Shown here in pieces: positions 15,983 through 31,218 of a DNA stretch of 64,000 bases. Source of the DNA: Lentisphaerota bacterium (lineage in GTDB: Bacteria > Verrucomicrobiota > Lentisphaeria > Victivallales > Victivallaceae); assembly GCA_015061625.1 (NCBI GenBank), contig SUWG01000006.1:62001-126000 (forward strand). The letters run 5' to 3'. Each line of letters begins with the position of its first letter. Position 1 is the first letter of the stretch. The translations under genes were made by a program, and so were the position numbers. Under the pieces are notes generated by a model that was not told the DNA's origin, searched no databases, and saw nothing but the letters and a program-made list of their open reading frames with translations.

Positions 15983-16363
15983 ATGGGAATTATCGGAGCT
16001 TTATTCGGCAATGCCGGGAAAACTTCCGGCGAAAACATCCAGGAACAATACAACAATCTTTTTGTGGAAAATGAAAAGGTCATTCAGGCATTCAAACTGA
16101 TCCGGGATGTCTATATTTTTACCGACAAACGCCTGCTGCTGATCGACAAACAGGGGTTGACCGGACACAAGACCGAGTACCTTTCCATCCCCTACAAATC
16201 CATCAGCCGTTTCAGCGTGGAAAGTGCCGGACACTTCGATCTGGAAGCTGAATTGAAAATCTGGGTGTCTTCCGCTCTCGAACCGACCTTGCAAAAGACT
16301 TTCAACCGTTCAGTGAATGTCTACGAAATACAGAAAATCCTGGCGACCTTTGTGCTGGGGTGA
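15983..16363 (+). CDS. small bacterial PH-domain protein
   Basis: A 126-residue soluble protein with a pattern typical of the bacterial pleckstrin-homology family (bPH): VYIFTDKRLLLIDKQGLTG, then EYLSIPYKSISRFSVES, then LEAELKIWVSS and a C-terminal helix. Family members are small single-domain proteins of unknown function, sometimes stress- or membrane-linked. An optimal AGGAGGT lies 6 bp before the ATG, and the gene has its own promoter at 15915. It is a single-gene unit, convergent with the M50 gene. Confidence 0.85.
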   Translation: MGIIGALFGNAGKTSGENIQEQYNNLFVENEKVIQAFKLIRDVYIFTDKRLLLIDKQGLTGHKTEYLSIPYKSISRFSVESAGHFDLEAELKIWVSSALEPTLQKTFNRSVNVYEIQKILATFVLG

Positions 16364-16370
16364 ACCATAA

Positions 16371-16395
16371 CCGCCGGGATCAGAATTCCCGGCGG
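16371..16395. terminator. bidirectional hairpin between convergent genes
   Basis: CCGCCGGGA (16371-16379) and TCCCGGCGG (16387-16395) form a perfect 9-bp stem with a 7-nt loop. It overlaps the stop codon of the M50 gene. There is no clear T-run on either side, so termination efficiency is uncertain. Confidence 0.6.
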
Positions 16396-18452
16396 AATAT
16401 TCCCGTAACGGCGCGGCTGATAAGATCGATCAACCTGATTTCACGGTCGATCTCACACCGCACCCGCCGTCCGCAAGGCAGCGACACTCCTTCTGCGAAA
16501 CGCAATTCGATCCGGTAATACAATCTGACCGAATGGAATCCGGGGGCATTTTCATTCTGATACATGGGTATTCTGCCGCCGTATACCTGGAGCAACGGAG
16601 AATCAAACAGCGGCACGGCGACCTGACTTACCGCCGTTACCACCGCCGGAAAACTTTCCATACTGTCATCCACCCGGATCACCGCCCGGTCACCGGCTTG
16701 CAATTTCCCGGCATCATGATCATCGGCGTAAGCGTAGATCACCACTTCGGGGGAGATCACTGTACCGACTTCCGTGCCCCGCGGAATATAGCGGCCGCGG
16801 CGGAAAGCGGCGGCATTTTCCACCCGGAATATCCCATCGGCCGGAGATGTCACCGTCAAAGCCGCCCGGCGGCGGAGCAATTCTTCCAGCGCACGCTCAT
16901 CCGAAATGATCTTCTGTCCGGTAATTTTCGCCTGACTGAATCTTTCTGCATCCAACTCCTCAAGGGCAAATTGACAACGGTCAAATTCCAGCACCGACTG
17001 CATTTTACCGACTGCGAAATCCAGTTGGGGCGAAGTCAGAATGAAAAGGTTTTCCCCGGTTGTCACCGCCACCGGCTCATGCGGCAGATCTGCAGTCAGA
17101 TAACCGCCCTCACCGGCGACCACCGCCACGCACTCCAGCGGCACGGTCAAGCCGTCGATCTCCACGCTCCAATTCAAAGGCGTAAAGAGCAATGCCCCCA
17201 GAAACGCCACCAGAGCGATACCCAGCACCATTCCCGCTTTTCCGGCCGAGCGGCGGGATAATTCCCGGATCGTAACGATCTCCCGGATACAGGGATTGAC
17301 GAAAATAACATATACTTCCAATATCAGCAGAATCACCGCCACCACCTTGATAAAACTGTGGTAGATGACCATGATGATCGCCGTATACAGAAATATGCGG
17401 TAAATAAATGAAGTTATGCCGAATAACAACAGAAACCAGCCGTGTTTCTCTGCCGGTTTTTTCCCCAGATGCAGAATATAATACCGCCAGAACTGCCTGA
17501 CATATTCCCCGGATCGGGTCATCAGATTGTCGATGCCGGTCAAGTCACACAGAATATAGTATCCATCGTAACGGATACAGGGGTTGCCGTTGACCAGCAA
17601 AGTGGAAATGGTGCTGACGGTAAAAATATAAAACATCGTAGACTGCCACACTCCGGGCGGCAGATAAAAGTAGAATAATGCGGCAATGCCGCCGATGAGC
17701 AATTCCGCAATGACTCCGGCGGCATCGATCAGCAGCCGCCGGTGCCGCGGCAGCAGCCAACTGTCGGTCGTATCGGTATACAATCTGGGATAGAAGACCA
17801 TAAAACCGATCCCGATCCCCCGCACCCGGCACTTGAAACGGATCGCCGCCAGCGAATGTGCCGCCTCATGGACGATTTTCAAAAACAGTATCGCCGCAAA
17901 ATATTTCGCCACTCCCGCCCAGGAGAGCGTATCCATAAAGACGCTCTGCACCTGCGGAAAATCCCGGATCGCCAGCAGAAATCCCAATGCCGCGGGGATC
18001 GCCAGCAATATCACCATAAATTTTGATGCCAGAAATGAAACAAAAGGAGCAATGGTCTCAAAGAACTTTTCCGGATGCCACGGCGGCAGACGGAAATACA
18101 TATAAAGTGAAGCCAGCCGCATAAAACGGCTCTTTTCCCGCATGGATGCCAACTTGTGCTGTTTGGCGGCGATCCGGGCATAGGATGGTTCAAAAAGATT
18201 GTTCTGCTCCAGAAACAGCACCAGAGAGATCAATTCATCTTCCGTAACGGCGATACCGGCGGCAAAAAGTTTTTCCTGAAATTTTCTGACCGGCATGACA
18301 CCGGTCATGTAAGCGATGATCCCGGCGGCCCTTTCGGAAATCCGGTAATACGCATCGGCCTGACGGTCAAAAAGCATCACCGGGTTGCGCCGCACGATCA
18401 CCACATCCTTGCGGAGAACTCCCGTTTCGATCTGCCTGCTTCCGGTCATCAC
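16380..18452 (-). CDS. M50 site-2-protease-like membrane protein fused to a HlyD-type adaptor domain
   Basis: A 690-residue polytopic protein. Residues 1-110 resemble a small PqqD-like/winged-helix region (RISERAAGIIAYMTG). A multi-helix segment follows, with HEAAH (195-199), the zinc-binding HExxH of M50 site-2 proteases, and NPCIRYDGYY (290-299), the second M50 motif supplying the third ligand (Asp296). From about residue 430 a final membrane helix leads to a periplasmic lipoyl/barrel-sandwich domain ending with RCEIDREIRLIDLI. Both catalytic motifs are intact. This is the last gene of the secretion cassette, overlapping the preceding adaptor stop by 4 bp. Intramembrane cleavage of the cassette's substrate or of a membrane-anchored adaptor is a plausible, unproven role. 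The start could also be the second ATG (18449). Confidence 0.85.
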   Translation of the reverse strand: MMTGSRQIETGVLRKDVVIVRRNPVMLFDRQADAYYRISERAAGIIAYMTGVMPVRKFQEKLFAAGIAVTEDELISLVLFLEQNNLFEPSYARIAAKQHKLASMREKSRFMRLASLYMYFRLPPWHPEKFFETIAPFVSFLASKFMVILLAIPAALGFLLAIRDFPQVQSVFMDTLSWAGVAKYFAAILFLKIVHEAAHSLAAIRFKCRVRGIGIGFMVFYPRLYTDTTDSWLLPRHRRLLIDAAGVIAELLIGGIAALFYFYLPPGVWQSTMFYIFTVSTISTLLVNGNPCIRYDGYYILCDLTGIDNLMTRSGEYVRQFWRYYILHLGKKPAEKHGWFLLLFGITSFIYRIFLYTAIIMVIYHSFIKVVAVILLILEVYVIFVNPCIREIVTIRELSRRSAGKAGMVLGIALVAFLGALLFTPLNWSVEIDGLTVPLECVAVVAGEGGYLTADLPHEPVAVTTGENLFILTSPQLDFAVGKMQSVLEFDRCQFALEELDAERFSQAKITGQKIISDERALEELLRRRAALTVTSPADGIFRVENAAAFRRGRYIPRGTEVGTVISPEVVIYAYADDHDAGKLQAGDRAVIRVDDSMESFPAVVTAVSQVAVPLFDSPLLQVYGGRIPMYQNENAPGFHSVRLYYRIELRFAEGVSLPCGRRVRCEIDREIRLIDLISRAVTGIFRREF

Positions 18453-19798
18453 AGCCCCCGGAAATAGAGCAATGCACTTTTGAAAAGCCGGTAACCGAGC
18501 GTTACTTCACCGCTGTAAAGTTTGGCGATGCCCCGCATACCGTATTTCAAACCGTTCCCGGCATCCGGCAGTTGCGCCCGCACCATGTAGCAGTAACTTT
18601 TCTGTCCGGTAAGTTCCGGATAGGCGGCGATTTCCACGACTTCAGCGGGAATTTCCTCCTGCGGCGCGGTATGAAGGAAAAGTTCCACGGTCAAATCATT
18701 ATTCTGCAAAATGGAAGAATCCGTTTCATTGACCGGGATTTCAGCAATGATGCAACTGCCGCTGTAAATTTCAAAAATGATATCCCCGGTGCGCACCGAT
18801 CTGCCGGTAATACTGTCGGCTCTGCCGCCTTGCAACACCAACACCCCGGAAACCGGAGCGCGGATCTCGGAATTATCCAGAAACCATTGCGCTTCGGCAA
18901 TGGCGATCTCCAGACTCCGGCGGCGGGCATAAAGCAACTGCACTTTGCCCATCTTTTCCGCATCGGTAAAGGCGTTGCGCTCTTCCAGGGCGATTTCGGC
19001 TTCCAACTCCGCCAGTTCGCTCTGCGCCTGCTGACAGCGGTACTGGAATATCGCCGTATCATAGCGGGCAATGATTTCGCCCTCAACGACCTGCGAACCA
19101 TCTTCTTTCAGACACTCGATGATCGAACCGTCAAACCGGGCATAAACCGGCATGACCACTTCCGGTTGCAAAGTGAACTCCGCCGTGGTACTTTCCGGCA
19201 CCCGGATAAACATCAAACCAAAAACCAGCAGCAAAACCAGCAGCCAGAATATCCGTTTGCCGCGTCTGCGGCGCACCGGGAACCCCTTTTTTCCGGCGGC
19301 AAGATGGAAATATAACGCTCCGGCAATGGAATTGCCCGCTATTTTGACCATGTTTTCCACAAATGCGGGTATCTCCCGCTCATACTCCAGAAGTAAAATA
19401 AATTCCGGAGCCTTTTCCGGCACGCTTGCCGGACGGGGCAATTTGCAGATGAAATATTTAAGCCCTTCTCCGGCCAATTCATCCGGCAGACCGTTTTCCC
19501 GGTCAAGCACCATAAACGATTCATCATCCCATGACAATTTTTGCAGCAATTCCTGCTGCTGCAACGCCACTTTGGCACGGGGATTTTTTTCCGGAATGCC
19601 CGACTGGGCGGCCAATTCCGCCTTTCTGCCGCTGACTTCAAACAATGCGGCACTGCGGAAATCCAACAGCGGACGGCTGTCATTCACCGCTCTGGCGGCA
19701 GCTTCATCGAAATTGGCGGCATTCATCAGATCATTGCCGAATTTCAACACAAAAGCAAATGTCCGCAGTTTGGCCGCCGCCTCATCATTCGCCATCAT
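18449..19798 (-). CDS. GAF-like / HlyD-type membrane-fusion adaptor
   Basis: A 449-residue protein whose N-terminal 170 residues have a GAF-like pattern (FRSAALFEV, ELAAQSGIPE, GLKYFICKLP, FILLLEYE). This is followed by a basic stretch, one membrane helix (about 183-198) and a periplasmic HlyD-like region: lipoyl half-motif (RFDGSIIECLKEDGSQVVEG), a coiled-coil hairpin (about 248-310), SEIRAPVSGVLVLQGG, and a beta-barrel. The GAF part is inferred from pattern only. A sensory domain on the cytoplasmic side coupled to a periplasmic adaptor is unusual for type I systems. The start overlaps the preceding adaptor gene by 14 bp, and the stop overlaps the M50 start by 4 bp. Confidence 0.75.
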   Translation of the reverse strand: MMANDEAAAKLRTFAFVLKFGNDLMNAANFDEAAARAVNDSRPLLDFRSAALFEVSGRKAELAAQSGIPEKNPRAKVALQQQELLQKLSWDDESFMVLDRENGLPDELAGEGLKYFICKLPRPASVPEKAPEFILLLEYEREIPAFVENMVKIAGNSIAGALYFHLAAGKKGFPVRRRRGKRIFWLLVLLLVFGLMFIRVPESTTAEFTLQPEVVMPVYARFDGSIIECLKEDGSQVVEGEIIARYDTAIFQYRCQQAQSELAELEAEIALEERNAFTDAEKMGKVQLLYARRRSLEIAIAEAQWFLDNSEIRAPVSGVLVLQGGRADSITGRSVRTGDIIFEIYSGSCIIAEIPVNETDSSILQNNDLTVELFLHTAPQEEIPAEVVEIAAYPELTGQKSYCYMVRAQLPDAGNGLKYGMRGIAKLYSGEVTLGYRLFKSALLYFRGL

Positions 19799-20495
19799 AT
19801 AATTCTCCGGTCGCTCCGGCAGTCAATGCGCCGTTGCGGTTGTCGATCCTCACTTTGATACGCACCGTGCCGGTGCGGTGATCGGCTTGCGGGGAGACTT
19901 CATATATCTCCCCGGAAATGATCTGCCCGGAATCCAGTTTTATCCGGAGAGTTCTGCCGACCGTGGTCAAATTGCGGTCGTGCATGGGTACATTCATCAC
20001 CGCCAGAAGTGTATTGTCATCGATTATCCGGCAAACCGGCTGACCGGGGCGGACAGTTTCATGCTCTCTGGTTAAAATCTCCACCACCTTGCCGTCAAAC
20101 GGGGCCGTTATCCGGCAATAAGAAAGATTCAGTTGCGCCTCCCGCAGGATAACTGCCGACATATTGCGTTCAAATTCCGCTTTTTTCAACAGATATTCGC
20201 TGGTCAGATTGCGTTCTTTCAACCGCTGCTGATCTTCAAAAGAGGCCTGATCAAATTTGTGTTTTTCACTTGCCCGCTGAAACTCCAGCAGAAAACGCTC
20301 ATCCACCAGAGTTGCGATCACATCGCCGCTTTTGAATGGCTGACCGATCCGGAAAGCAAAATTATGCAATACCGAATCGACCCTCGCCGAAATCACCGCT
20401 TCCCGGAAGGGAAACAGCACCGTCCGGATCCGCTCTCCGGCGGCCAGCGGCAGTGACAGCAAAAATGCAAAACACAATATTTGAATCAACTTCAT
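19785..20495 (-). CDS. exported HlyD/RND-type periplasmic adaptor
   Basis: A 236-residue protein with a signal peptide (MKLIQILCFAFLLSLPLAAG). The mature part follows the membrane-fusion-protein order: lipoyl half (FPFREAVISARVDSVLHNFA), a short coiled-coil hairpin (about 75-120), the second lipoyl half (YCRITAPFDGKVVEILTREH), and a barrel (VNVP-like MNVPMHDRNL, TGTVRIKVRIDNRNG). No membrane anchor or lipobox was seen, so it is probably soluble in the periplasm. It starts inside the stop of the large substrate gene (4-bp overlap) and precedes two membrane-bound adaptors, suggesting a second adaptor layer in the same export machine. Confidence 0.82.
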   Translation of the reverse strand: MKLIQILCFAFLLSLPLAAGERIRTVLFPFREAVISARVDSVLHNFAFRIGQPFKSGDVIATLVDERFLLEFQRASEKHKFDQASFEDQQRLKERNLTSEYLLKKAEFERNMSAVILREAQLNLSYCRITAPFDGKVVEILTREHETVRPGQPVCRIIDDNTLLAVMNVPMHDRNLTTVGRTLRIKLDSGQIISGEIYEVSPQADHRTGTVRIKVRIDNRNGALTAGATGELYDGE

Positions 20496-23400
20496 GCCAG
20501 AAGCATCTCCTCAATGGCTTTCTCAAAATCACTTTTGAAATTGTCTGCCTTGCTCTGCAATTCATCCAGTTGCGGCAATTCGCTCCACGGCAGGGATTCC
20601 GCCGCTTCATCACCGTCGATGTAGAGTGACTCCGGAGATTCCACCGGAGCATCGCCGCGCACTTCGATCACGGCATCACTGCCGGGGGAGAATATCTCAT
20701 TGCCGCTGATAACGCCCTGCGGATTGACGGTGCCGGTAACTTCAAATACGGCACTTTCACGCATGGGGGAATCCAGCGTCATCGGTTTGTATTCCAGAAT
20801 ATCCACCTGACTGACCGCTCCGGCGCCCGACGGGCCGTTGCCGCGGATGAGCAGTTGCTGATCCATGATGCCGCGCCCGTAATTGAGCATGGTATGCGAA
20901 ACCAGTTCGGCATAGTTCATCGTATAGATGTTGCCGTAAGGATTATCTCCGCCGATGCCGTCACCGCCGATGCCGTTGGCGGTCAGATCGCCCTGTATCG
21001 AGGGGATGATTCCGGAATATTTCGGATTGCTCACGCCATCGGAATAGTCCGCTCCGGCCGGGTTGAAAGGCAGGATCGTCACCGTGGCAGTGGGATTCAA
21101 CGCATTATAATTGCTGTCAGAGATGGTCACCGATATCTCATAATCGCCGACGGCGGCAAAAATTTTGCCGTTCCAGTTGATCGGCAGATCGACCTTGTTG
21201 CCGTGGATATCCACATAATACGCACTGACCTTGCCGCTCTGATCGGTGGAATCATACAAATACGGCGAATCGCTGACGAAATGCACGGTAACATCTTTGG
21301 GATCGATATCACCGCTGCCGGAAATATGGTATGAATCCGGCAGTTTGTAGTTTTCCGCATCACTGCCGGTCAACCCCAGACCGCCGGTAACATCGACCTG
21401 AATATCATTTCCGGCATCCGGAGAAACGAAATCAGCATCGGCATTGCTCCAATCGACCGTTACATCATCACCGGCAACGGCTCCGCTGAATGTGCCGCCG
21501 GATAAGGTGGCATCAGTCGTGCCGTCATAGGTCTTGTCATTGACGGTGATCTGTGAAATACCCAATTCTTTCTGATCGACCGTAAACTGCGCTCCGGTAA
21601 AGGAGATGATCTTGTAGTTGGGATTGCTGCCCTCAATCAAACTGCCCTGAATGATATCGTAATCACCGGCCTTGAGATTATTCGATGAACTGTATTGCGG
21701 ATTATCGATCTCCAGCGTGCCGTTAAGCACTTCGCCATTGGCCATGCCGTCTTCGCCGACGGTATATTCCAGTGTCGGGAGCGTGTCGCCGTAGGTCATG
21801 GATTGCCCGCTGTTGACCGTAATGGAAATATTCCGTTTATAGACAGTCAATTCGCCTTTTTCGGTGGTGATGATATAGTTGCCCGCATCCGTACCGCTCA
21901 ACAAAGTGTAGTTGGTAACTTCATTGTAACTGGTTCCGGCATTGAGCCTGCTGCCGATAACGGTCACACTTGCCAGACCTTCACCGGTTGCAAAACCGTA
22001 ACCGGTATCGGCATCAAAAGCGGAATAAGTGTAGCCGCTGTCGGTCAATTCCGTGCCGTCATATTTTTTGCTGTCGCTGTCGGCAGTGATGACCACGGTG
22101 CGTTTATCCACCTGCAATGTACCCAAGATCTCCTGAATGTTATAGTTGGCAGAAACATCGGTGCCATCATGGGTTATATAATAATCAAAAGTATTCTGTG
22201 ACGAACCGGAATTCAACTGACTGCCGGTAGTCGTCACGGTCAGTTGATCGCCGGTTGCCAAAGTGCCACTGTAAGTGTAGGTGGTATTGGTCAATTCCGT
22301 GCCGTCATAGAATTTCTGCGCACTGCCCGTGGTGATCGTCACACTGATCGAGGCCTGTTTGACTTCCAGAATACCCAGAACCGTGGTGATCACATAGTTC
22401 TGCGCCAAAGTGCCGGAATTGAGGGTGTAAGTGAATGTATTGTCACTCGTTCCGACAAAAAGCTGTTCTCCGGTAACGTCAAAATCCGCCCCCTCACCGG
22501 TGACGAATCCATCACCGGAAACCGTCACATTATCATTGGTCAGCACAGTACCGTCATAAAATTTCTCATCACTTGCCGAGGTGAATGTGATCTGCCGCGG
22601 CGTGATTTTGACCGTGCCTACTTCCGCATCGGCGACCGATGCATCGGCTCCGGCAGGTACATTGGCTCCGGAAAAATCAAATTTACCGGTAATGTCACTG
22701 GAATCATAACTTATTGACACCGTGATATCTTTGGCACAGAAAAGATAATCTCCGGCATCCTTGCCGATACCGTCACTTGCGACATCAGCGGTATTCAGAC
22801 CGTCGGCATCGATCGTCAGTTTTCCGGCACTGCTCACCACAGAACCTCCGGCGGTCATGTAAGTTACCGCCAGATCCTTGCTTGCGCCATCGTATTTATG
22901 AGTATTGACCGCAGCATCATCGCCCACGACTTTGATCAGCGTCTTACCGGCGACCGCACCGATGAAGAACTCGTTGATCCCCAGATAACTCTGCGCCGTC
23001 GTCCGGCTGTTGCCCAATTCATCGGTAAAGAGCGTGGAAGTCGCTCCGGCAGGTTGCCCGGCACTGTTGCCATTCAAATCCGCCCAACTGCCGTCATCTT
23101 TCATATACACCAGATTGCCATTGGCATCGTAACCGGTAAGCGTACCGGCATATCCGGCGATATCGCCGTTATTCACCTGAATAACATTGTTTGCATCCAA
23201 CGCCGGGGAATCGGTGCCGAAAACTTTTTGCATCGCTTCAGAATACGCCTGGGCATCCAGTTTTCCGCTGCTATCCAATACATTCATTTTGAAAGAATTA
23301 TTTTCAACGGCGACATCCCACTCGATGTCACCGGGCGCACTGCCTTCCAGAGTAACGCCGTAGATCGAATGGATCATCCGGTTGGTGACCGTGACCGCCG

Positions 23401-24943
23401 ATGCATCGGAAACCGAATAAATATCCGATGCTCCGGCCATTGCTCCGGAACTGTCAACATTGTAATTGCCGAAAATAATGCTGTTGACGATATTCATTTC
23501 GGAATTTTTCTCATCGGCTTTGGCAAAAATACCGCCGCCGGTATAGCCGCTGCTGTTGGCATCATAATTGCCGGTGATGGTCGAATCGATCACATTGATA
23601 ACGAAACCGTCAGAAATAACATAAACCGCACCGCCGTCACCGGAAGTGCCGGCAACCGCATTGTTGCCGTAAAAAGTGGAATTGCGGATATTCAGCTCCA
23701 CATCACAATAGTCGGCAATGATCGCCACACCGCCGCCGTTGCTGGCATGAGAATCAGCAATGGTCACGTTATCCAGCGACAAGGTTATCGAATCGTCACT
23801 GTTAATGCCGAAAGCATTGATATAGATCGCGCCGCCATCTTCCCCGGAAGGGGTATTGACTGACCGGAAACCGTTTTGCAAAGTCATATTGCTTATGGAA
23901 ATATCCACCTTGCCGTCAAGCACATCGTAATACTCGAATATGCCGCTGACACCGCCGCCGTCAATGATTGTTTCACTAACGCCGTTACCGATGATCTGCA
24001 CACTGTCATTGATTTCCAGTGCCGAATCGATCTCTATCGTTTTGCCATTGAGCGAATCGGCAAAAACGATCACATCCGCCCCGGCATTGTTATAGGCAAG
24101 TTCGATGGCTTCCTGCAAAGTGGTGGTCGCCGCCGTATCGTCGGCTTCCAGAGCATCGACGGTAATGGTATCAAGGTCATGAGCGAACTCATCAACTTCG
24201 ATTTCAGCGGTTTCGATGGTACCGGCATGATATTCCAACTCCCAGTTTCCGGAAATACCGGTGACATCGGTACTGGCCGCCACATCGGCACCGCTGGCTT
24301 GAGAAATCATATCGACCAGTGCTTTTCCTTCAGCACCGGCGGCGACATCACAGCCGTAAAGCATGATATCGCCGTTTTCGCTCAAGTGTTCACCGATCGC
24401 CTGCCATGCCGCCGCATCGAACTTACCGGAACTGATCAATTCACCGTTAAGCACGAAATGCCCTTCACCGCCGTGGGAAACCAGATGGATGGCGGAATAC
24501 TCGACATCACTGCCATCTAAAAATGCATTAAGTTCAGCCAGACCGGTATTATTATCAAGGATCAGCACTTCCTGATCAGGCTCCAGCGCATTGATGAATG
24601 CCTCTTTATCCGGCATGGATGAATTGATGACCACCAATTCTCTGCCGGAAGCCTCATCCATCATGCCGGGGGGTATCTCACCATCGATCAGGGCATCGAT
24701 GTCGGCATTGACATCGGCAATATTTTCCGGGGAGTCATCCGCCGGCGCATGATCCATTGCCGCCGGATTTTCCGGCGGAGCATTTTTCAGCGCATTGCGC
24801 TCCTCTTGTGCCTGACGCTCACTTTCGCTCACATCGGCATTGGGATCATTCTGCGCCGCCTCGACGGCTTCGACGATCTCCGCCGCCGCCGCCGCTTCAA
24901 ACAGCACGCGATCCTCAAGTTTGAAAAATTCAAAGTCTTTCAT
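20492..24943 (-). CDS. giant type I secretion substrate: LEDRVLF leader, DUF4347, beta-helix and MBG/YDG repeats
   Basis: A 1483-residue protein with no Sec signal peptide. Residues 9-18, LEDRVLFEAA, resemble the LEPR-XLL/'LExRxLFDAA' N-terminal motif of large exported proteins. An acidic linker follows, then a DUF4347 domain (about 102-258) with IHLVSHGGEGHF (His157) and MLYGCDVAAG (Cys198). A parallel beta-helix-like region covers about 260-690 (repeated NSTFYGN, NVIDST, NSIIFGN type turns). About seven MBG/YDG repeats follow (about 690-1290; KFYDGTELTN, KKYDGTELTD, KTYDGTTDATL). The C-terminus is acidic and ends in an amphipathic helix with EEMLLA. Role inferred: surface adhesin or matrix protein exported by the surrounding ABC-HlyD-TolC genes. 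It is the only substrate-like gene in the operon. Confidence 0.85.
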   Translation of the reverse strand: MKDFEFFKLEDRVLFEAAAAAEIVEAVEAAQNDPNADVSESERQAQEERNALKNAPPENPAAMDHAPADDSPENIADVNADIDALIDGEIPPGMMDEASGRELVVINSSMPDKEAFINALEPDQEVLILDNNTGLAELNAFLDGSDVEYSAIHLVSHGGEGHFVLNGELISSGKFDAAAWQAIGEHLSENGDIMLYGCDVAAGAEGKALVDMISQASGADVAASTDVTGISGNWELEYHAGTIETAEIEVDEFAHDLDTITVDALEADDTAATTTLQEAIELAYNNAGADVIVFADSLNGKTIEIDSALEINDSVQIIGNGVSETIIDGGGVSGIFEYYDVLDGKVDISISNMTLQNGFRSVNTPSGEDGGAIYINAFGINSDDSITLSLDNVTIADSHASNGGGVAIIADYCDVELNIRNSTFYGNNAVAGTSGDGGAVYVISDGFVINVIDSTITGNYDANSSGYTGGGIFAKADEKNSEMNIVNSIIFGNYNVDSSGAMAGASDIYSVSDASAVTVTNRMIHSIYGVTLEGSAPGDIEWDVAVENNSFKMNVLDSSGKLDAQAYSEAMQKVFGTDSPALDANNVIQVNNGDIAGYAGTLTGYDANGNLVYMKDDGSWADLNGNSAGQPAGATSTLFTDELGNSRTTAQSYLGINEFFIGAVAGKTLIKVVGDDAAVNTHKYDGASKDLAVTYMTAGGSVVSSAGKLTIDADGLNTADVASDGIGKDAGDYLFCAKDITVSISYDSSDITGKFDFSGANVPAGADASVADAEVGTVKITPRQITFTSASDEKFYDGTVLTNDNVTVSGDGFVTGEGADFDVTGEQLFVGTSDNTFTYTLNSGTLAQNYVITTVLGILEVKQASISVTITTGSAQKFYDGTELTNTTYTYSGTLATGDQLTVTTTGSQLNSGSSQNTFDYYITHDGTDVSANYNIQEILGTLQVDKRTVVITADSDSKKYDGTELTDSGYTYSAFDADTGYGFATGEGLASVTVIGSRLNAGTSYNEVTNYTLLSGTDAGNYIITTEKGELTVYKRNISITVNSGQSMTYGDTLPTLEYTVGEDGMANGEVLNGTLEIDNPQYSSSNNLKAGDYDIIQGSLIEGSNPNYKIISFTGAQFTVDQKELGISQITVNDKTYDGTTDATLSGGTFSGAVAGDDVTVDWSNADADFVSPDAGNDIQVDVTGGLGLTGSDAENYKLPDSYHISGSGDIDPKDVTVHFVSDSPYLYDSTDQSGKVSAYYVDIHGNKVDLPINWNGKIFAAVGDYEISVTISDSNYNALNPTATVTILPFNPAGADYSDGVSNPKYSGIIPSIQGDLTANGIGGDGIGGDNPYGNIYTMNYAELVSHTMLNYGRGIMDQQLLIRGNGPSGAGAVSQVDILEYKPMTLDSPMRESAVFEVTGTVNPQGVISGNEIFSPGSDAVIEVRGDAPVESPESLYIDGDEAAESLPWSELPQLDELQSKADNFKSDFEKAIEEMLLA

Positions 24944-24964
24944 TTTCAGATCATTCCTTACTGT

Positions 24965-26605
24965 TTACTTTACAGTCGGATCGGCCGGAATCTCCGGAGC
25001 ATCAGGGGCGGCGGCAGATGTTTCACTGCGGTCAGCGGCCTCATCATCGTCATCTTCTTCAGATGCCTCATCTTCTTCTGCGGCGGCCCGCTCTCTTTCT
25101 GCGGCCTCATATTCGGCTCTGGCGCGCGCCAACTCTTCAGCGGCCCGTTCCCGCTCGGCTTCCAGCTGGGCTCTCAAACCGGCGACGGTAGTTTCGTGAA
25201 GATTTTCGATACCCAGCGCATTAAGCACCCGGTAATAGGAGACATAATAATTACCGATGGAAAGATATTTTTCGATCTGTTTTTCGGCAGTTTCCAGCCG
25301 CATATGGGCCAATTCCAACTGGGATAATTCGCCGGAAATACGGCTGCTTTCTTCCGCGGCGGCCAGATGGCGGCTGAAAATATCGCTGGCACGGATATCG
25401 ATATCCAGTCTTTCACGGGTGGCCATCAGATTGGCATGAGCGATACGCACCTGCGCCATGATGGCGATCGCCTGGGCGTAAGCGCGGTATTCTTCGGCAT
25501 CGACCTGGGCGCTGTAAGCCATATAGCGGGAGATCTGACGGGGCAGAGTGAGCAGATTGTAGGCCGCCCGGATGCCCAGTTCGATCCAGCTGTTGTGATA
25601 AAGGAAACTGTTGTTGCTGTTGGTGAAGTCGATGAACATCCGCACATTGGGGAACATGGAAACGATCGTCTTGCGGCACTCAAGGATATTGATATGTTTC
25701 TGCATATCGATCTGGAAAAGTTCCGGGCGTTTCATCAATGCGATCTGCTCCATAAGTTCCATTTCCGGGAAGGTGAATTCCGGAATGGTATCCAGAAGCG
25801 AATCATCGACTTTGATTTTGGCATTGGGATAAAGTCCCAGCAGCGCACGCAACTCGACACAACTGTTTTCATAGGTGCGGATGTAGTTGGTCAGACGGCG
25901 TTCCATTTCGATAAAACGTTTGGCTTCATCAAAGGCACGGAAAGGCGTGATCTCACCGGCGGCCCCCATGCGTTCAATCAATTCGTAACGGTTTTTGCAC
26001 TCATCCAGCAATCTGGTGGTGATATTGATCGCCCGCTGGGCGGCGGCGACCTGAAAGTACAATCTCACGGTTTCCAGCACCAGATTCTGCTCGGCGCGGC
26101 GGGTGTGCTGCTGGCGCAGCAGCATCCGGTCATTGGCCTGACAGGTATTGAAAAATGCCAGACCGAAATCGACCACGCTCAAAGCCAGATCGATATTCAG
26201 ATAGTTCACAGTGCGATCCTGACTCTGACTGTAAGAGTAGGTTCCCGGCCCGTAACCATCCAGCTGACGGCTGCTGGATGCCGGAGTGTTATCCCGGCGG
26301 GTCAGGTTGTCGGAAACGGTCAATTCCGGCAGCATTCCCAGAATTTCATAGGTACGCATCTCACGGGAAACCCGTTCTTCCAGACCGGCGACTTTCAACT
26401 GCAGATTATTCGCCATCGCCAGAGCGAAACACTCATTGAGCGTAAGAACTTTGTCTTCCGGGATATCGGAGTATTGGGAGCGTTCAAAATGCGCCACCGC
26501 ACTGGCCAGACGGTCAGCCTGATACTCATCAAATGATTTGCATCCGGTAAGCGACACAACTCCTGCGGCCACCACCGCCAACAACCAACTGAAACTCTTT
26601 TTCAT
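24965..26605 (-). CDS. TolC-family outer-membrane lipoprotein with long acidic C-terminal extension
   Basis: A 546-residue outer-membrane factor. The N-terminus is a lipoprotein signal (VVSLTGC, Cys22), so it is anchored to the outer membrane as in OprM/CusC-type proteins rather than E. coli TolC. The two OEP repeats are visible: LTLNECFALAMANNLQLKVA at the start of the first, and long helical segments such as LETVRLYFQVAAAQRAINIT and AQVRIAHANLMATRERLDI. After the channel domain (to about 455) come some 90 residues of charged coiled coil and an acidic tail (EEDDDDEAADRSETSA), which is unusual. The gene lies 21 bp upstream of the substrate gene and 35 bp downstream of the HlyD gene. Confidence 0.88.
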   Translation of the reverse strand: MKKSFSWLLAVVAAGVVSLTGCKSFDEYQADRLASAVAHFERSQYSDIPEDKVLTLNECFALAMANNLQLKVAGLEERVSREMRTYEILGMLPELTVSDNLTRRDNTPASSSRQLDGYGPGTYSYSQSQDRTVNYLNIDLALSVVDFGLAFFNTCQANDRMLLRQQHTRRAEQNLVLETVRLYFQVAAAQRAINITTRLLDECKNRYELIERMGAAGEITPFRAFDEAKRFIEMERRLTNYIRTYENSCVELRALLGLYPNAKIKVDDSLLDTIPEFTFPEMELMEQIALMKRPELFQIDMQKHINILECRKTIVSMFPNVRMFIDFTNSNNSFLYHNSWIELGIRAAYNLLTLPRQISRYMAYSAQVDAEEYRAYAQAIAIMAQVRIAHANLMATRERLDIDIRASDIFSRHLAAAEESSRISGELSQLELAHMRLETAEKQIEKYLSIGNYYVSYYRVLNALGIENLHETTVAGLRAQLEAERERAAEELARARAEYEAAERERAAAEEDEASEEDDDDEAADRSETSAAAPDAPEIPADPTVK

Positions 26606-26640
26606 GATTCGGGAACTCCTTTTGTTATATGATAAATTGT

Positions 26641-28083
26641 TTACGGTTCTCTTATTGCTTCATCCAGCGATTTGACCAACGGATGGATGATATATTCCAA
26701 AACGCTTCTGGTGCCGACTTTGATTTCAGCCTGCACTTCCATACCCGGAGTAAGCCGGAAATTATCCGGTACATTGCGCAAAGTGCCGCTCAAGGTGATC
26801 CAGACCCGGTAATATGAACCGCCGGTGGCAGATGGATCGCCGCCGCCCTGACCGGGCTGCTTCTGGAATGAGTCCGGACTGATTTCCCGGATCACCCCAT
26901 CCAGTGTGCCGTGCTTCTGGAAGGGGAAGGCATTGAGTTTGACCCGCACCGTGTCACCGACTTTAACTTTACCGATATCCTGCGCCGGGATCTCGGCTTC
27001 CACTTCGATCTCACTGATCGGAACCAGCGTGATCAGAGCCTCGGCCTCACGCACCGCCGAACCGACCGGAAATGAGGCGATCTCCAGCACGATGGCATCG
27101 CAGGGGGCTTCCAACTGGATGTAACGGTCAAGCTGCAAGATCTTATCCAGACTGGTGCGGATGGTGATCAATGCCTGTTCGGCGGAGACCAGATTTTCGG
27201 TGATATCCTTGCGCCACTCATTGATAAATTCATTTTTCTGTTCCTCTATCGCTTCGATCTCGCGGTCATTGGCGGCGATGGAACCTTCAAGACGGGAAAT
27301 TTCCCCCTCCTGTTGCTGGAAACTCATGATATACTGGCTCAAATCGATCTGCGTACCGGCATTTTTTTCCACCAATGCCCGCTGCATATCGACCAGTTTG
27401 CGCATCTCTTCCAGCCGCAAACGCTGTTGAGCCAACTGTTCACGCGACGAAGCCTGTTCCGTTCTTATCCGCTGGATGGAGGCTTCAAAATGGCGCAGTT
27501 TGGAAGCATAATATTCCCGGCGGCTGTTGAATAAAGCCAACTGACGGCCGCCATTGTCATTCTCATCAGTATAAGCAGTAAACCGGGTTTCCCGCTGACA
27601 GTAATTGCAACTTTCCGGAGCAGTTTCACCGGCGAACAGGGCTTCGCAGCCATCGCATTGCCAATGCGGCACAGGAGTATATTCAGCACCTTCATATTCC
27701 GCTTTGAACCGATCCAGCTGGGCCTTGACCCGCAGATATTCGCTGGTCAGACGCTTCTTTTCCGCCTGATTGATCGCCGGGTCAAAGGTGATCAATACCT
27801 GTCCTTTGCGCACCACGTCACCGACTTTGACCTCAATGGAGCGGATCACGGTACGATCCAGCGGCTTCATCACGATATTCTGATCGACCGGAACCAGTTT
27901 ACCGGTCCCCGATACGATCACATCGACTTCACAGAAATAAGAGGCGATCAGCGAACCGAAAAAGAATACGATCCCGATCCACACGCCCAGTTTGGCCATG
28001 AAAGGAACCGGACGCATGGCGATTTCAACGGCATCAGGCTGAAAATCCACCGCCAGATTGTTGAGTTTATTTTGCTTGCTCAT
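26641..28083 (-). CDS. HlyD-family type I secretion adaptor with inserted four-cysteine zinc-ribbon-like motif
   Basis: A 480-residue inner-membrane adaptor with a short cytoplasmic N-terminus, a membrane helix (about 32-50), a first lipoyl half (VIRSIEVKVGDVVRKGQVLI), a coiled-coil hairpin (about 185-310), the second lipoyl half (IQLEAPCDAIVLEIASFPVG) and a barrel with VGDTVRVKLNAFPFQKHG, the typical type I adaptor C-terminal signature. Between the first lipoyl half and the hairpin, Cys143-x2-Cys146 and Cys159-x2-Cys162 form a rubredoxin/zinc-ribbon-like knuckle (CDGC...CNYC) that normal HlyD proteins lack. The start overlaps the ABC gene stop by 4 bp. It should bridge the ABC exporter and the TolC-like protein. 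Confidence 0.9.
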   Translation of the reverse strand: MSKQNKLNNLAVDFQPDAVEIAMRPVPFMAKLGVWIGIVFFFGSLIASYFCEVDVIVSGTGKLVPVDQNIVMKPLDRTVIRSIEVKVGDVVRKGQVLITFDPAINQAEKKRLTSEYLRVKAQLDRFKAEYEGAEYTPVPHWQCDGCEALFAGETAPESCNYCQRETRFTAYTDENDNGGRQLALFNSRREYYASKLRHFEASIQRIRTEQASSREQLAQQRLRLEEMRKLVDMQRALVEKNAGTQIDLSQYIMSFQQQEGEISRLEGSIAANDREIEAIEEQKNEFINEWRKDITENLVSAEQALITIRTSLDKILQLDRYIQLEAPCDAIVLEIASFPVGSAVREAEALITLVPISEIEVEAEIPAQDIGKVKVGDTVRVKLNAFPFQKHGTLDGVIREISPDSFQKQPGQGGGDPSATGGSYYRVWITLSGTLRNVPDNFRLTPGMEVQAEIKVGTRSVLEYIIHPLVKSLDEAIREP

Positions 28084-30629
28084 CGGTTGATGTTCCTTTC
28101 CATCTGCTGACTCCAGAAGTCTTTGTAGACCCCCGGACGGCTCAACAATTCCCGGTGCGGGGCAAAGTCATCCAATTCACCCTTGTTAAGCACGATCGTC
28201 TTATCTGCACCGCTGACGATCGACAGCCGGTGGGAGATTATCAGCACCGTTCTGCCGGCGGCGATACGCGGCAGATTTTCCTGAATGACATTTTCGCTTT
28301 CCGGATCGAGCGCACTGGTCGCTTCGTCGAAAATCAGGATCCGGGGATTGGTCAGCAATGCACGGGCGATCGCCAGACGCTGTTTCTGACCGCCGGAAAG
28401 GTTGGAAGCATTTTCCTCCAGCATGGTATCGTAACCTTTGGGCAGATTCTGCACGAATTCATCCGCTCCGGCCAGCCGGGTGACGGTGATGATCTCATCC
28501 AGCGTGGCATGGCGTTTGGTCAAACTCAAATTCTCCCGCACCGTACCGCTGAAAAAGTAATTTTCCTGCAATACCACACCGATACTGTTGCGCAGATGCA
28601 CCTTGTCGATCTCCCGGATATCGATACCGTCGATCTTCACCAGACCGCTCATTACCGGATACAACCCCTGGAGCAGTTTGGTCAATGTCGTCTTTCCCGA
28701 ACCGCTGCGGCCCACGATACCGATCACCTGCCCCGGCTCAATGGTGAATGAAAGATCACGGATGATCATCGGCCCGTCGGCAGTGTAACGGAAATTCACA
28801 TGGTCAAAGGCGATTTGACCGCGGAATGGGGTACGCACCCCGCCGCCGGCGTGTTCCGGACGGCAATTCATCACGTTGCCCAGCATCTGGATCGAAATGG
28901 ATATCTGCTGATATTCATGCACCAGACTGACCAGTTTGACCAATGGCCCGGTGACTCTGCCGGAAATCATCTGAAAGGCGATCAGGGCACCGACGGACAT
29001 CGTGCCGTCAAATACGGACATCGTACCCAGACCGATCACACAGACATTCATCATCATTTCCAGATATTGACTCAATGTTTTGGCGGTGATGGAAATTTTA
29101 CCGACCCGGAAATAGGCGTTGACCGTGAATGCCGTAGTATCGGCCCATGCCTCTTTCTGCACCGGTTCAAGCGAAAGACTTTTGACCGTTCTCATACCCT
29201 GAATGGATTCAACGAGCATACTCTGCCTTTTACCTTCCGCAGAGTAAAGATCCTGCAATCTGCGCTGGAAAGGCTTGATCAGAACGCCGATGACCACCGC
29301 CATCGCCGCGGCAAAACCCAGCACCACACAGGTAAGTTTCACGCTGTACATCAGAAGAAACGGCACGAAAATAAACAAACTGGTCATTTCCAGAATGGTA
29401 AAAAACAAACTTCCGGAAAGAAACCCGCGGATCTTTTCCGTCTGCTGCATATGCTTGAGCAACACCCCTGACGGCACCCGGTCAAAGAAGTCGATGGGCA
29501 GTTTCATAAGTTTGTCAAAGACCTTGGTCGCCGTGGCAATATCGATCTTGTTGGTGGCAAACAGCAGCAGATAACCGCGCAAATACTCCATAATGGCGTT
29601 GAATACCAATATCACACAGATACCGACGATCAGCACATTGAGCGTATTGTAACTCTGACTGACCAGCACCTTATCCACAATGATCTGGAAAAAGAGCGGC
29701 ATGATCAGCGCAACCACGTTGATCATCAGCACGGCGAAAGCGATATGGCCGAAAATGCCTTTGAGTTTGAGAAATTCCGGCACGAACCAGAGCAGACCGA
29801 ATGGCCGCTCCTCATCAAACATTTTGTATACCCTTTTGACCAGATAGCCGTAACCGGAACACATTTCCGAATAGGTTTTCTTATCCCACATCAGAAATCT
29901 TTCACCGCTTTTCGGCGGCGGGGAATTGGGGTCGATCACCGCCAGTTGTCCGCCCTCCGGAGTATCCCGGTAGCCGCAGATGATGACGTGTTTGCCGTCT
30001 TTGCGCACGGCGATCGCCGGAAATGCCTTACCCATGCCGCTGAACATCTTCCACGGCATTTTCGCCCGGCCGATCTTGAGCGAATTATCATTGCCGATGC
30101 GGATGATCTGCCGGGGAGTCAATTCATCAGTGGAAATGGCGTAATCATGCATGATCCGGCGGCAATTCAGATTCAGCCGGTGGTGATTGGCAACGGAAAC
30201 CAGACAGAATACCGATGAATGGCGGCGGCTGTCGAAATCCCGCAAGTTGGAAAAAGTTATTAGCGTACCCTCGGCGATCTGCAGGAATTGTTCCTTGGTG
30301 AGCATCACGGTTGCCGGACCGTTTTTGCCGCGAGGGTTGAATAATCCGATCTTGTCACCGGCCAGTTGGGCGGTATTGACCATGACGACGTACTCATTAT
30401 TTTTGAGCAGAGCCAGAGCCGGGCCGCCGAGTTGTTTGATCTCGCGGATCTGCACTTTGTTGGGCTGATACTCCATGGCATCGCCGATTTTGAGCAGAGC
30501 CGTGATCGAATCCCGGTCGTACAATGATTTTATTTCCGGATTGACGATCCCATCCCAATCGGGATTGAGATGCATTTGCCTGATCAACTCTTTCAGACAA
30601 TCAAGTCCGCTTCGCTGTATATTATTCAT
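28080..30629 (-). CDS. type I secretion ABC exporter with two tandem degenerate C39-like domains
   Basis: An 849-residue exporter half-transporter. Residues about 5-128 and 135-266 both look like C39 peptidase folds. By alignment with HlyB-type sequences, the catalytic Cys is Ser7 in the first and Ser138 in the second; His is Glu79 versus His214, and Asp is Asn98 versus Asp233. Both should therefore be non-proteolytic C39-like domains (CLD) that hold unfolded substrate. Six membrane helices (about 290-560) are followed by the ATPase: GIVGRSGSGKTT (Walker A), LSGGQKQRLAIARAL (signature), ILIFDEATSALD (Walker B) and an H-loop in VLIISHRLS. It is the first gene of the cassette, and its stop overlaps the HlyD start. 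Confidence 0.92.
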   Translation of the reverse strand: MNNIQRSGLDCLKELIRQMHLNPDWDGIVNPEIKSLYDRDSITALLKIGDAMEYQPNKVQIREIKQLGGPALALLKNNEYVVMVNTAQLAGDKIGLFNPRGKNGPATVMLTKEQFLQIAEGTLITFSNLRDFDSRRHSSVFCLVSVANHHRLNLNCRRIMHDYAISTDELTPRQIIRIGNDNSLKIGRAKMPWKMFSGMGKAFPAIAVRKDGKHVIICGYRDTPEGGQLAVIDPNSPPPKSGERFLMWDKKTYSEMCSGYGYLVKRVYKMFDEERPFGLLWFVPEFLKLKGIFGHIAFAVLMINVVALIMPLFFQIIVDKVLVSQSYNTLNVLIVGICVILVFNAIMEYLRGYLLLFATNKIDIATATKVFDKLMKLPIDFFDRVPSGVLLKHMQQTEKIRGFLSGSLFFTILEMTSLFIFVPFLLMYSVKLTCVVLGFAAAMAVVIGVLIKPFQRRLQDLYSAEGKRQSMLVESIQGMRTVKSLSLEPVQKEAWADTTAFTVNAYFRVGKISITAKTLSQYLEMMMNVCVIGLGTMSVFDGTMSVGALIAFQMISGRVTGPLVKLVSLVHEYQQISISIQMLGNVMNCRPEHAGGGVRTPFRGQIAFDHVNFRYTADGPMIIRDLSFTIEPGQVIGIVGRSGSGKTTLTKLLQGLYPVMSGLVKIDGIDIREIDKVHLRNSIGVVLQENYFFSGTVRENLSLTKRHATLDEIITVTRLAGADEFVQNLPKGYDTMLEENASNLSGGQKQRLAIARALLTNPRILIFDEATSALDPESENVIQENLPRIAAGRTVLIISHRLSIVSGADKTIVLNKGELDDFAPHRELLSRPGVYKDFWSQQMERNINR

Positions 30630-30870: not shown

Positions 30871-31218
30871 ATGAAAAAACTGCTCGCAACTCTCGCTCTC
30901 ACCCTGATCGGATCAGCCGCTTTCGCCGGAGCCTATGGAGGTCCCAAATCTGCTGATGAAAGAGTCAACGCCAACGGTGCCGACCGTTACGAAATCGTCT
31001 TCAACGGCGGCGAACAGGCCCGCGTGGTGGTTGACGGTGACGGTGATACCGACCTCGACCTCTACATCTACGACGAAAACGGCAATCTGATCACCAAAGA
31101 TGATGACAATACTGATTACTGCATCTGCACCTGGACTCCGAGATGGACCGGCAAATTCATCATCCGTATCGTCAACCGCGGCAGTGTCTACAACCAGTAT
31201 GAACTGCACACCAACTGA
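30871..31218 (+). CDS. small secreted protein resembling a pre-peptidase C-terminal (PPC) beta-sandwich
   Basis: A 115-residue exported protein with signal peptide MKKLLATLALTLIGSAAFA. The mature part (about 96 residues) has the order of a single PPC-like domain: RYEIVFNGGEQARVVVDGD, DTDLDLYIYDENGNLI, then WTPRWTGKFIIRIVNRGS and a final YELHTN strand. The DGDGDTDLDLYIYD segment matches the acidic calcium-binding turn of such domains. The ATG at 30871 follows an AAGGA ribosome-binding site in a strongly A-rich leader; no upstream start gives a signal peptide. An intrinsic terminator follows directly, so this is a single-gene unit, divergent from the secretion cassette. Its strong leader and terminator suggest high expression. 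Function unknown. Confidence 0.85.
   Translation: MKKLLATLALTLIGSAAFAGAYGGPKSADERVNANGADRYEIVFNGGEQARVVVDGDGDTDLDLYIYDENGNLITKDDDNTDYCICTWTPRWTGKFIIRIVNRGSVYNQYELHTN

Follow-up and report, generated by a model that had tools for sequence, protein, structure and literature searches.

A TolC, three-adaptor and M50 protease module associated with LExR-tagged DUF4347 proteins, from Lentisphaerae to Escherichia coli plasmids

In 2015 Kamneva, Poudel and Ward described a conserved locus in which genes for HlyD, GAF-HlyD and M50-HlyD proteins lie together next to a second, short SecA, and the role of this locus was then called completely unknown (PMC4452313, available text). In that SecA_DEAD locus the three genes are adjacent, an OEP channel is sometimes present, there is no ABC gene and a secretion function was predicted. 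These features are shared with the core module analysed here. The locus of the window differs in having no second SecA in its own genome or in most relatives checked and in the addition of an ABC-HlyD gene pair. There are 0 occurrences of DUF4347 in PMC4452313, and no leader tag, RRE domain or SecA-less form was seen in its available text. No experimental study of the module was found among the matches listed in literature searches, from whose scope subscription papers and preprints were excluded. The first-pass annotation of this DNA, which knew of no experimentally described system of this composition, agrees with this result, but the three-adaptor locus had already been described in the 2015 paper.

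Several other systems resemble parts of the locus. Type I secretion (HlyB-HlyD-TolC) has a TolC channel and adaptors of the HlyD fold in common with it, and an HlyB-type ABC exporter with a C39-like domain is also encoded here; the differences are that the core module is without an adjoining ABC gene in most loci seen, that its conserved signal is N-terminal, and that three dissimilar adaptors are combined with an intramembrane protease. Leader recognition and site-2 protease (S2P) maturation of RiPPs (daptide, NF041824; YydH/LiaK, NF058609; PqqD/RRE) likewise place an RRE-like domain ahead of an M50 protease. The daptide and YydH-type enzymes are leader or maturation proteases of peptide products, whereas the M50 protein described below is fused to an adaptor and its partner protein mostly exceeds 1000 residues. 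The LEPR-XLL domain (NF012209) is an N-terminal LEPR motif of giant proteins, the tag associated with the present module being wider (LExR); NF012209 gave weak matches in three of five substrates scanned (12.5 to 16.5 bits, all below the cut-off of 17 bits) and no match to the substrate of the window at E up to 0.1. DUF4347 with conserved His and Cys residues occurs in Tce1 (PA0256) of H3 type VI secretion, which according to the available text is a separate effector loaded into Hcp (PMC13323088, PMC8262886), whereas here the domain lies at the front of a giant, presumably exported protein.

Composition of the seven-gene locus

The window is a stretch of 64,000 nucleotides from a Lentisphaerota bacterium whose 2.7-Mb genome assembly is 90.9 % complete. 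A run of seven genes on its minus strand (16380-30629) was read off the sequence, in agreement with the first-pass annotation, in the order ABC exporter, HlyD, TolC, 1483-residue substrate, soluble adaptor, GAF-adaptor and M50-adaptor. The junctions in this order measure -4, +35, +21, -4, -14 and -4 bases, minus denoting overlap. The earlier statement that all of the genes are joined by overlaps therefore held for four of the six junctions, including the 4 bases shared by the ABC and HlyD genes, and failed for the two short gaps. Promoter and terminator scans gave no site to rely on. The family names assigned earlier were upheld by Pfam and NCBIfam, except that the GAF part was apparent by fold only.

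The components of type I secretion (ABC exporter, HlyD adaptor and TolC channel) were all present. The ABC exporter (28080-30629, 849 aa) is of the HlyB type with a C39-like domain, scoring 594.6 bits against TIGR01846 (below the cut-off of 725.55), and a second C39-like domain is probable ahead of the first. Its partner, the HlyD-type adaptor (26641-28083), was over the cut-off of TIGR01843 with 293.5 bits. The remaining genes make up the core module. The outer-membrane channel (24965-26605) belongs to the TolC family (PF02321, 1.1e-17), and the soluble periplasmic adaptor (19785-20495) has a hydrophobic, signal-peptide-like N-terminus and exceeded the cut-off of TIGR01730 (128.9 bits). The GAF-adaptor (18449-19798) was predicted to consist of a GAF fold at its front (residues 5-175, 19274-19786), one transmembrane segment (residues 183-201) and a MacA-like adaptor part (model m642fb0e1723a, pLDDT 88.7).

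The M50-adaptor (16380-18452) was predicted, from profile matches and modelled folds, to comprise a putative RRE/PqqD-like domain (residues 9-89, 18186-18428), a site-2 protease core (residues 120-383, 17304-18095) and a MacA-like adaptor domain (residues 404-675, 16428-17243). RRE/PqqD domains are leader-binding winged helices of three strands. Membership of family M50 was indicated by PF02163, over its cut-off, and by the S2P fold of the predicted structure. The residues of the HExxH and downstream Asp motifs (H195, E196, H199, N288 and D296) were invariant in 32 proteins, which argues for cleavage. The daptide leader-protease model NF041824 (E up to 0.001) was matched by every one of the 32 M50-adaptors scanned, and the YydH/LiaK epipeptide protease model NF058609 by 25 of them; the score of the window protein against NF041824 was 138.2 bits, below the equivalog cut-off of 300 bits.

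Distribution of the module, DUF4347 and the ABC exporter

Of the 148 class genomes searched for the M50-adaptor, 50 were positive, and 59 neighbourhoods were fetched; 56 loci remained after omission of three without a full M50-adaptor (L087-L089). The GAF-adaptor was encoded within 3.7 kb of the M50-adaptor in 48 of these, the soluble adaptor was present in 49, both in 47 and TolC in 21, and 18 contained an ORF resembling the first 260 residues of the window substrate. Absences of substrate, TolC and ABC genes in these counts and in those for the named genomes below are upper bounds, as a fetched stretch often breaks off within the giant gene or where its contig stops.

Among named genomes, at least 586 relatives were detected with a profile, of which the best 80 were kept. 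This is not an even sample and at least six of its loci duplicate the class set (L124=L032, L125=L038, L127=L048, L130=L057, L135=L037 and L136=L072). Among these best 80 of at least 586, the GAF-adaptor was found in 77 loci, the soluble adaptor in 65, both in 64 and TolC in 51; a DUF4347 ORF lay within the fetched stretch in at least 19, a lower bound because the giant gene often runs past the end of the stretch. The same 80 loci came from Lentisphaerae, Rhizobium, Azospirillum, Burkholderia, Marinomonas, Pectobacterium, Phytobacter, Nitrospira and others. Annotated five-gene operons were found on a Burkholderia anthina plasmid (a DUF4347 giant with the tag LEPRVVYDA, TolC and the three adaptors) and on an E. 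coli IncF plasmid, where a 13.4-kb gene carries the tag LESRQLFDG. Among 5426 complete E. coli genomes, 24 contained the TolC-to-M50 part of the latter operon, 21 of its 25 places being on plasmids. On a plasmid of Azospirillum sp. B510 the M50-adaptor had none of the other module genes as neighbours, and a TolC-linked ORF of M. gryphiswaldense (492 aa as annotated) had no tag at its annotated start. The M50-adaptor had no match in phages.

The first-pass annotation had proposed that the three extra genes are a module dedicated to LEDR/DUF4347 proteins, and the co-occurrence check that it suggested supports rather than refutes this. DUF4347 was over its cut-off in 35 of the 50 M50-positive genomes of the class and in five of the 98 M50-negative ones (p = 6.6e-17); G040, in which the M50 match is weak and partial, was kept among the 50 (p = 2.1e-17 without it), whereas G060 and G066, whose DUF4347 matches fell below cut-off, were counted as negative for DUF4347. 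The association was also seen when the class set was counted by genus (23/32 compared with 4/44, p = 1.6e-8), within the family of the window (19/24 and 2/31, p = 2.4e-8) and within its genus (4/5 and 0/15, p = 0.001). For 369 genomes of Gammaproteobacteria, the class of a Pectobacterium genome, the figures were 36/56 and 11/313 (p = 5.9e-26, kinship ignored), with three candidates scored per genome, so that absences may be overstated. In 18 Gammaproteobacteria genomes a DUF4347 domain and the M50-adaptor gene lay no more than 10 kb apart.

The ABC exporter was distributed differently from the module. No window-type ABC other than that of the locus was found in the host genome, where six candidates were scored and one matched at E up to 1e-100. 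Such a gene was present in three of the 56 class loci with a full M50-adaptor; a fourth match, an ORF of 949 aa in L064 that lies on the opposite strand and scored 38 bits in a single-sequence search, was dropped as resembling another ATPase. Among fetched loci, many of which stop short of the place upstream of TolC where the ABC gene would lie, the only places where it adjoined the module were the window, L031, L032 (= L124) and L044, these three being from the genus of the window, and L123, from a near relative, where the fetched stretch breaks off within it. Over the class genomes no association with the module was detected (29/50 module-positive and 53/98 module-negative genomes, p = 0.73). 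There was a weak link by genus (19/32 and 14/44, p = 0.02), and within the family of the window the ABC gene was rarer with the module than without it (18/24 and 30/31, p = 0.035); six candidates per genome were scored in this survey and ABC absences may be overstated. HlyD adjoined the ABC gene in all 12 separate ABC loci picked from the 82 positive genomes, with neither the module nor TolC beside the pair in those loci. A large ORF directly adjoined the ABC-HlyD pair in L209 and L211 and could be its cargo.

Type I secretion was set aside as the whole answer because the ABC exporter does not follow the module over genomes, although the weak link by genus speaks against this step. The earlier reading as a whole is partly supported: a dedicated module is supported, a type I machine with extra genes is not, and the order of that description is to be reversed. 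The results support as the conserved unit the substrate, TolC, the soluble adaptor, the GAF-adaptor and the M50-adaptor, to which the ABC exporter is a local add-on outside the core.

Leader tag and DUF4347 domain of the substrates

The substrate of the window (20492-24943, 1483 residues) carries an N-terminal tag, LEDRVLFEA (residues 9-17, 24893-24919), followed by a DUF4347 domain (residues 103-246, 24206-24637; PF14252, 1.7e-35) and YDG repeats (PF18657, 6.6e-20). No Sec signal peptide was evident by hydropathy in this protein or in 12 other chosen substrates, the N-terminal hydropathy maximum being 1.08 for the window substrate and 0.38-1.34 for the others, compared with 1.97 for the soluble adaptor.

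In each of the 30 distinct DUF4347 ORFs whose N-terminus is intact, the domain was preceded by a tag of the form LExRxx[FLY][DES][AG]; four further ORFs, truncated where a stretch ends, were left out. The positions between R and [FLY] were mostly hydrophobic, the protein of the E. coli plasmid being an exception. The expression was written after these proteins had been viewed, and weight is therefore placed on the controls. In a mechanically compiled set of 1267 other ORFs of at least 200 aa the tag was found near the N-terminus of eight, and shuffled N-termini contained it in 4 of 7000 cases. All eight of these ORFs, which range from 203 to 2801 aa, adjoin the module, and for this reason the substrates seem to be defined by the tag rather than by DUF4347. 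At the DNA level the LEDR pattern was detected in 33 of the 148 genomes, compared with 8 for the reversed control. After removal of eight genomes in which F replaces the first or sixth residue (e.g. FEDRIFF, in one genus), LEDR[IVM]LF remained in 25 of the 148, of which 23 were M50-positive.

The Cys of DUF4347 was kept in 34 of 39 copies and the His of its HG pair in 30 of 39. In an aligned set of 27 copies, from which near-duplicates and divergent copies were left out, the corresponding counts were 27 and 24, and both residues are present in the window copy. The DUF4347 profile, searched against solved structures, matched PDB chain 9qpe_G, which is named as a DUF4347 protein. The top matches of that search were designed TIM barrels, which matched a repeated short stretch and were taken as artefacts, and searches with a single DUF4347 sequence or the whole substrate gave nothing useful. 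In the available text of the paper that holds the 9qpe entry, Tce1 (PA0256) and Tce2 are putative cysteine proteases with a His-Cys dyad (PMC13323088); that PA0256 contains DUF4347 is stated in an earlier paper (PMC8262886, available text). Given the kept Cys and His and this description of Tce1, DUF4347 of the substrate is probably a His-Cys cysteine protease acting as a processing domain, which may cleave its own chain.

Candidate motors and explanations of the module

One SecA_DEAD protein was found in the host genome of the window; the absence of a second is not absolute, as the assembly is 90.9 % complete. A short SecA was encoded directly behind the M50-adaptor in six of the 56 class loci, and SecA was absent from all of the best 80 named stretches (of at least 586). 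Among 18 module-bearing genomes hand-picked from the 80 named loci, four had a strong second SecA match (frames of 669-720 aa), five had one SecA only and nine had a weak extra match, which covered 65-72 positions of the profile and lay in a frame of 691-838 aa, four of the nine being over cut-off. We infer that these nine are other helicases, and they were counted as genomes without a short SecA. A short SecA as the obligatory motor was set aside for the group of the window, with its one SecA and the short form missing from 14 of the 18 genomes checked. In one of the short-SecA loci (L085) a DUF4347 protein with the tag LEPRILL is encoded next to the module on the opposite strand, which ties the Kamneva-type locus to the same type of substrate. 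There were also 13 module-positive genomes with neither a window-type ABC (six candidates per genome scored) nor a short SecA, and for genomes of this kind the best guess for the motor is the housekeeping SecA.

As a whole explanation, the conserved unit is probably a dedicated system for the leader-directed export and processing of very large surface proteins. Its basis is computational, comprising gene neighbourhood, co-occurrence, tag conservation, predicted folds, intact protease residues and the lack of a hydrophobic N-terminus on the substrate. A substrate without an evident Sec signal would present the N-terminal tag, which the RRE-like domain of the M50-adaptor may read in the manner of a RiPP leader, and the site-2 protease of the same protein would remove or trim the tag in the membrane. 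DUF4347, situated just behind the tag, probably cuts the chain too. In the proposed topology, the soluble adaptor and the adaptor domains of the other two proteins, M50-adaptor and GAF-adaptor, would form a periplasmic conduit to TolC, and the GAF domain may gate this conduit or report from the cytoplasm. A SecA-family ATPase is the most likely motor, namely a dedicated short SecA in some loci and the housekeeping SecA elsewhere. In the genus of the window and a near relative, where the ABC-HlyD pair has joined the operon, this pair may be the motor or a parallel route.

A fuller version of this proposal, which we put forward tentatively as a possible but not a favoured account, is that the module is a separate secretion pathway extending from Lentisphaerae to E. 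coli plasmids. The RRE-S2P-adaptor protein would capture the LExR leader by pairing of its invariant Asp29 with the invariant Arg of the tag, the leader would be cut in the membrane, and the chain would pass through the three adaptors to TolC. The motor would be interchangeable, being a short SecA, the housekeeping SecA or, in the genus of the window, the ABC exporter; DUF4347 would then trim the exported chain.

The closest competitor follows Kamneva et al., with the M50-adaptor as a membrane pore and the SecA-like ATPase as motor, and no proteolysis. A pore with an ATPase was proposed in the available text of PMC4452313, and the short SecA genes directly behind the M50-adaptor in six class loci are in keeping with it; we nevertheless regard it as doubtful, in that all 32 proteins compared have the same protease residues and a short SecA is lacking in the genome of the window, in 14 of the 18 genomes checked (weak matches discounted) and in the 80 named stretches. 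It is quite unlikely that the ABC-HlyD-TolC set is the real exporter, of type I with a C-terminal signal, and that the role of the three extra proteins is confined to processing, retention or sensing of the substrate at the envelope. The single run of seven genes with its 4-base ABC/HlyD overlap and the weak link by genus would fit such an arrangement, as would a C-terminal stretch of the type FKSDFEKLLEELL, which by eye is common to the window substrate and its Lentisphaerae relatives. The same stretch, however, occurs in L038 and L058, from genomes without such an ABC (E up to 1e-100), and the ABC gene adjoins the module in a handful of fetched loci, is not associated with it over genomes and is rarer with it in the family of the window. 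That the adaptors resemble RND/MacA-type efflux adaptors might suggest a small-molecule or metal efflux system lying merely beside an adhesin gene, but this is highly improbable in view of the substrate association and common tag found from Lentisphaerae to E. coli plasmids, and no pump gene was present within the module run in the annotated records examined.

If leader-directed export by the conserved unit is correct, giant adhesin-like proteins in many Gram-negative bacteria would leave the cell without a dedicated ABC exporter or the usual Sec signal peptide, and the leader recognition known from peptide natural products would have been reused for protein secretion. A substrate family and a leader would be added to the locus described by Kamneva et al. 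in 2015. The tag would serve as a predictor of substrates and, with the RRE-like domain, as a defined peptide-domain pair, and DUF4347 would acquire a likely role.

N-terminal domains of the exporter and flanking ORFs

The HlyB-type ABC exporter of the window (28080–30629, minus strand) seems, from its sequence, to carry a second C39-like domain N-terminal to the first, as suggested by a profile comparison over 13 relatives (probability 69.5, E 4.2e-5). By eye, a Ser apparently occupies the usual position of the catalytic Cys. Residues 1–134 and 133–290 are seemingly the two domains in tandem.

A plus-strand ORF lies at either side of the operon. The small ORF at 30871–31218, divergent from the operon, has what looks by eye like a signal-peptide start. 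The other, of 126 residues at 15983–16363, faces the end of the operon convergently, and on visual inspection alone its product looks similar to a bacterial PH-like domain.

ABC–HlyD pairs and substrate C-termini

In many genomes of the class Lentisphaeria, the module was absent beside window-type ABC–HlyD pairs (loci L203–L214); large ORFs adjoined the pair at L209 and L211. A FKSDFEKLLEELL-type stretch closed the Lentisphaerae substrates at L031, L032, L034, L036, L038, L039, L044, L058, L076 and L123 (by eye), and this type of C-terminus was also found where the genome lacked a window-type ABC exporter. No such ending was evident by eye among the proteobacterial substrate C-termini compared.

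Carriage by E. coli and further tagged ORFs

The module genes from TolC through the M50-adaptor were found in a few E. coli isolates (24 genomes, scored for this part), mostly on plasmids. In the plasmid record NZ_CP104683.1 (loci L220 and L223), these genes follow a giant gene encoding a tagged DUF4347 protein.

At L139:45–5839, next to the module, lie two ORFs in tandem, one 967 and the other 964 aa long; each carries the N-terminal tag LEKRLMLDA, and DUF4347 was found in neither. At L217 (G026:C51), an additional giant ORF tagged LEDRILFDG has its own TolC, with no other module gene nearby in the 12 kb fetched, and a single module may therefore serve several substrates.
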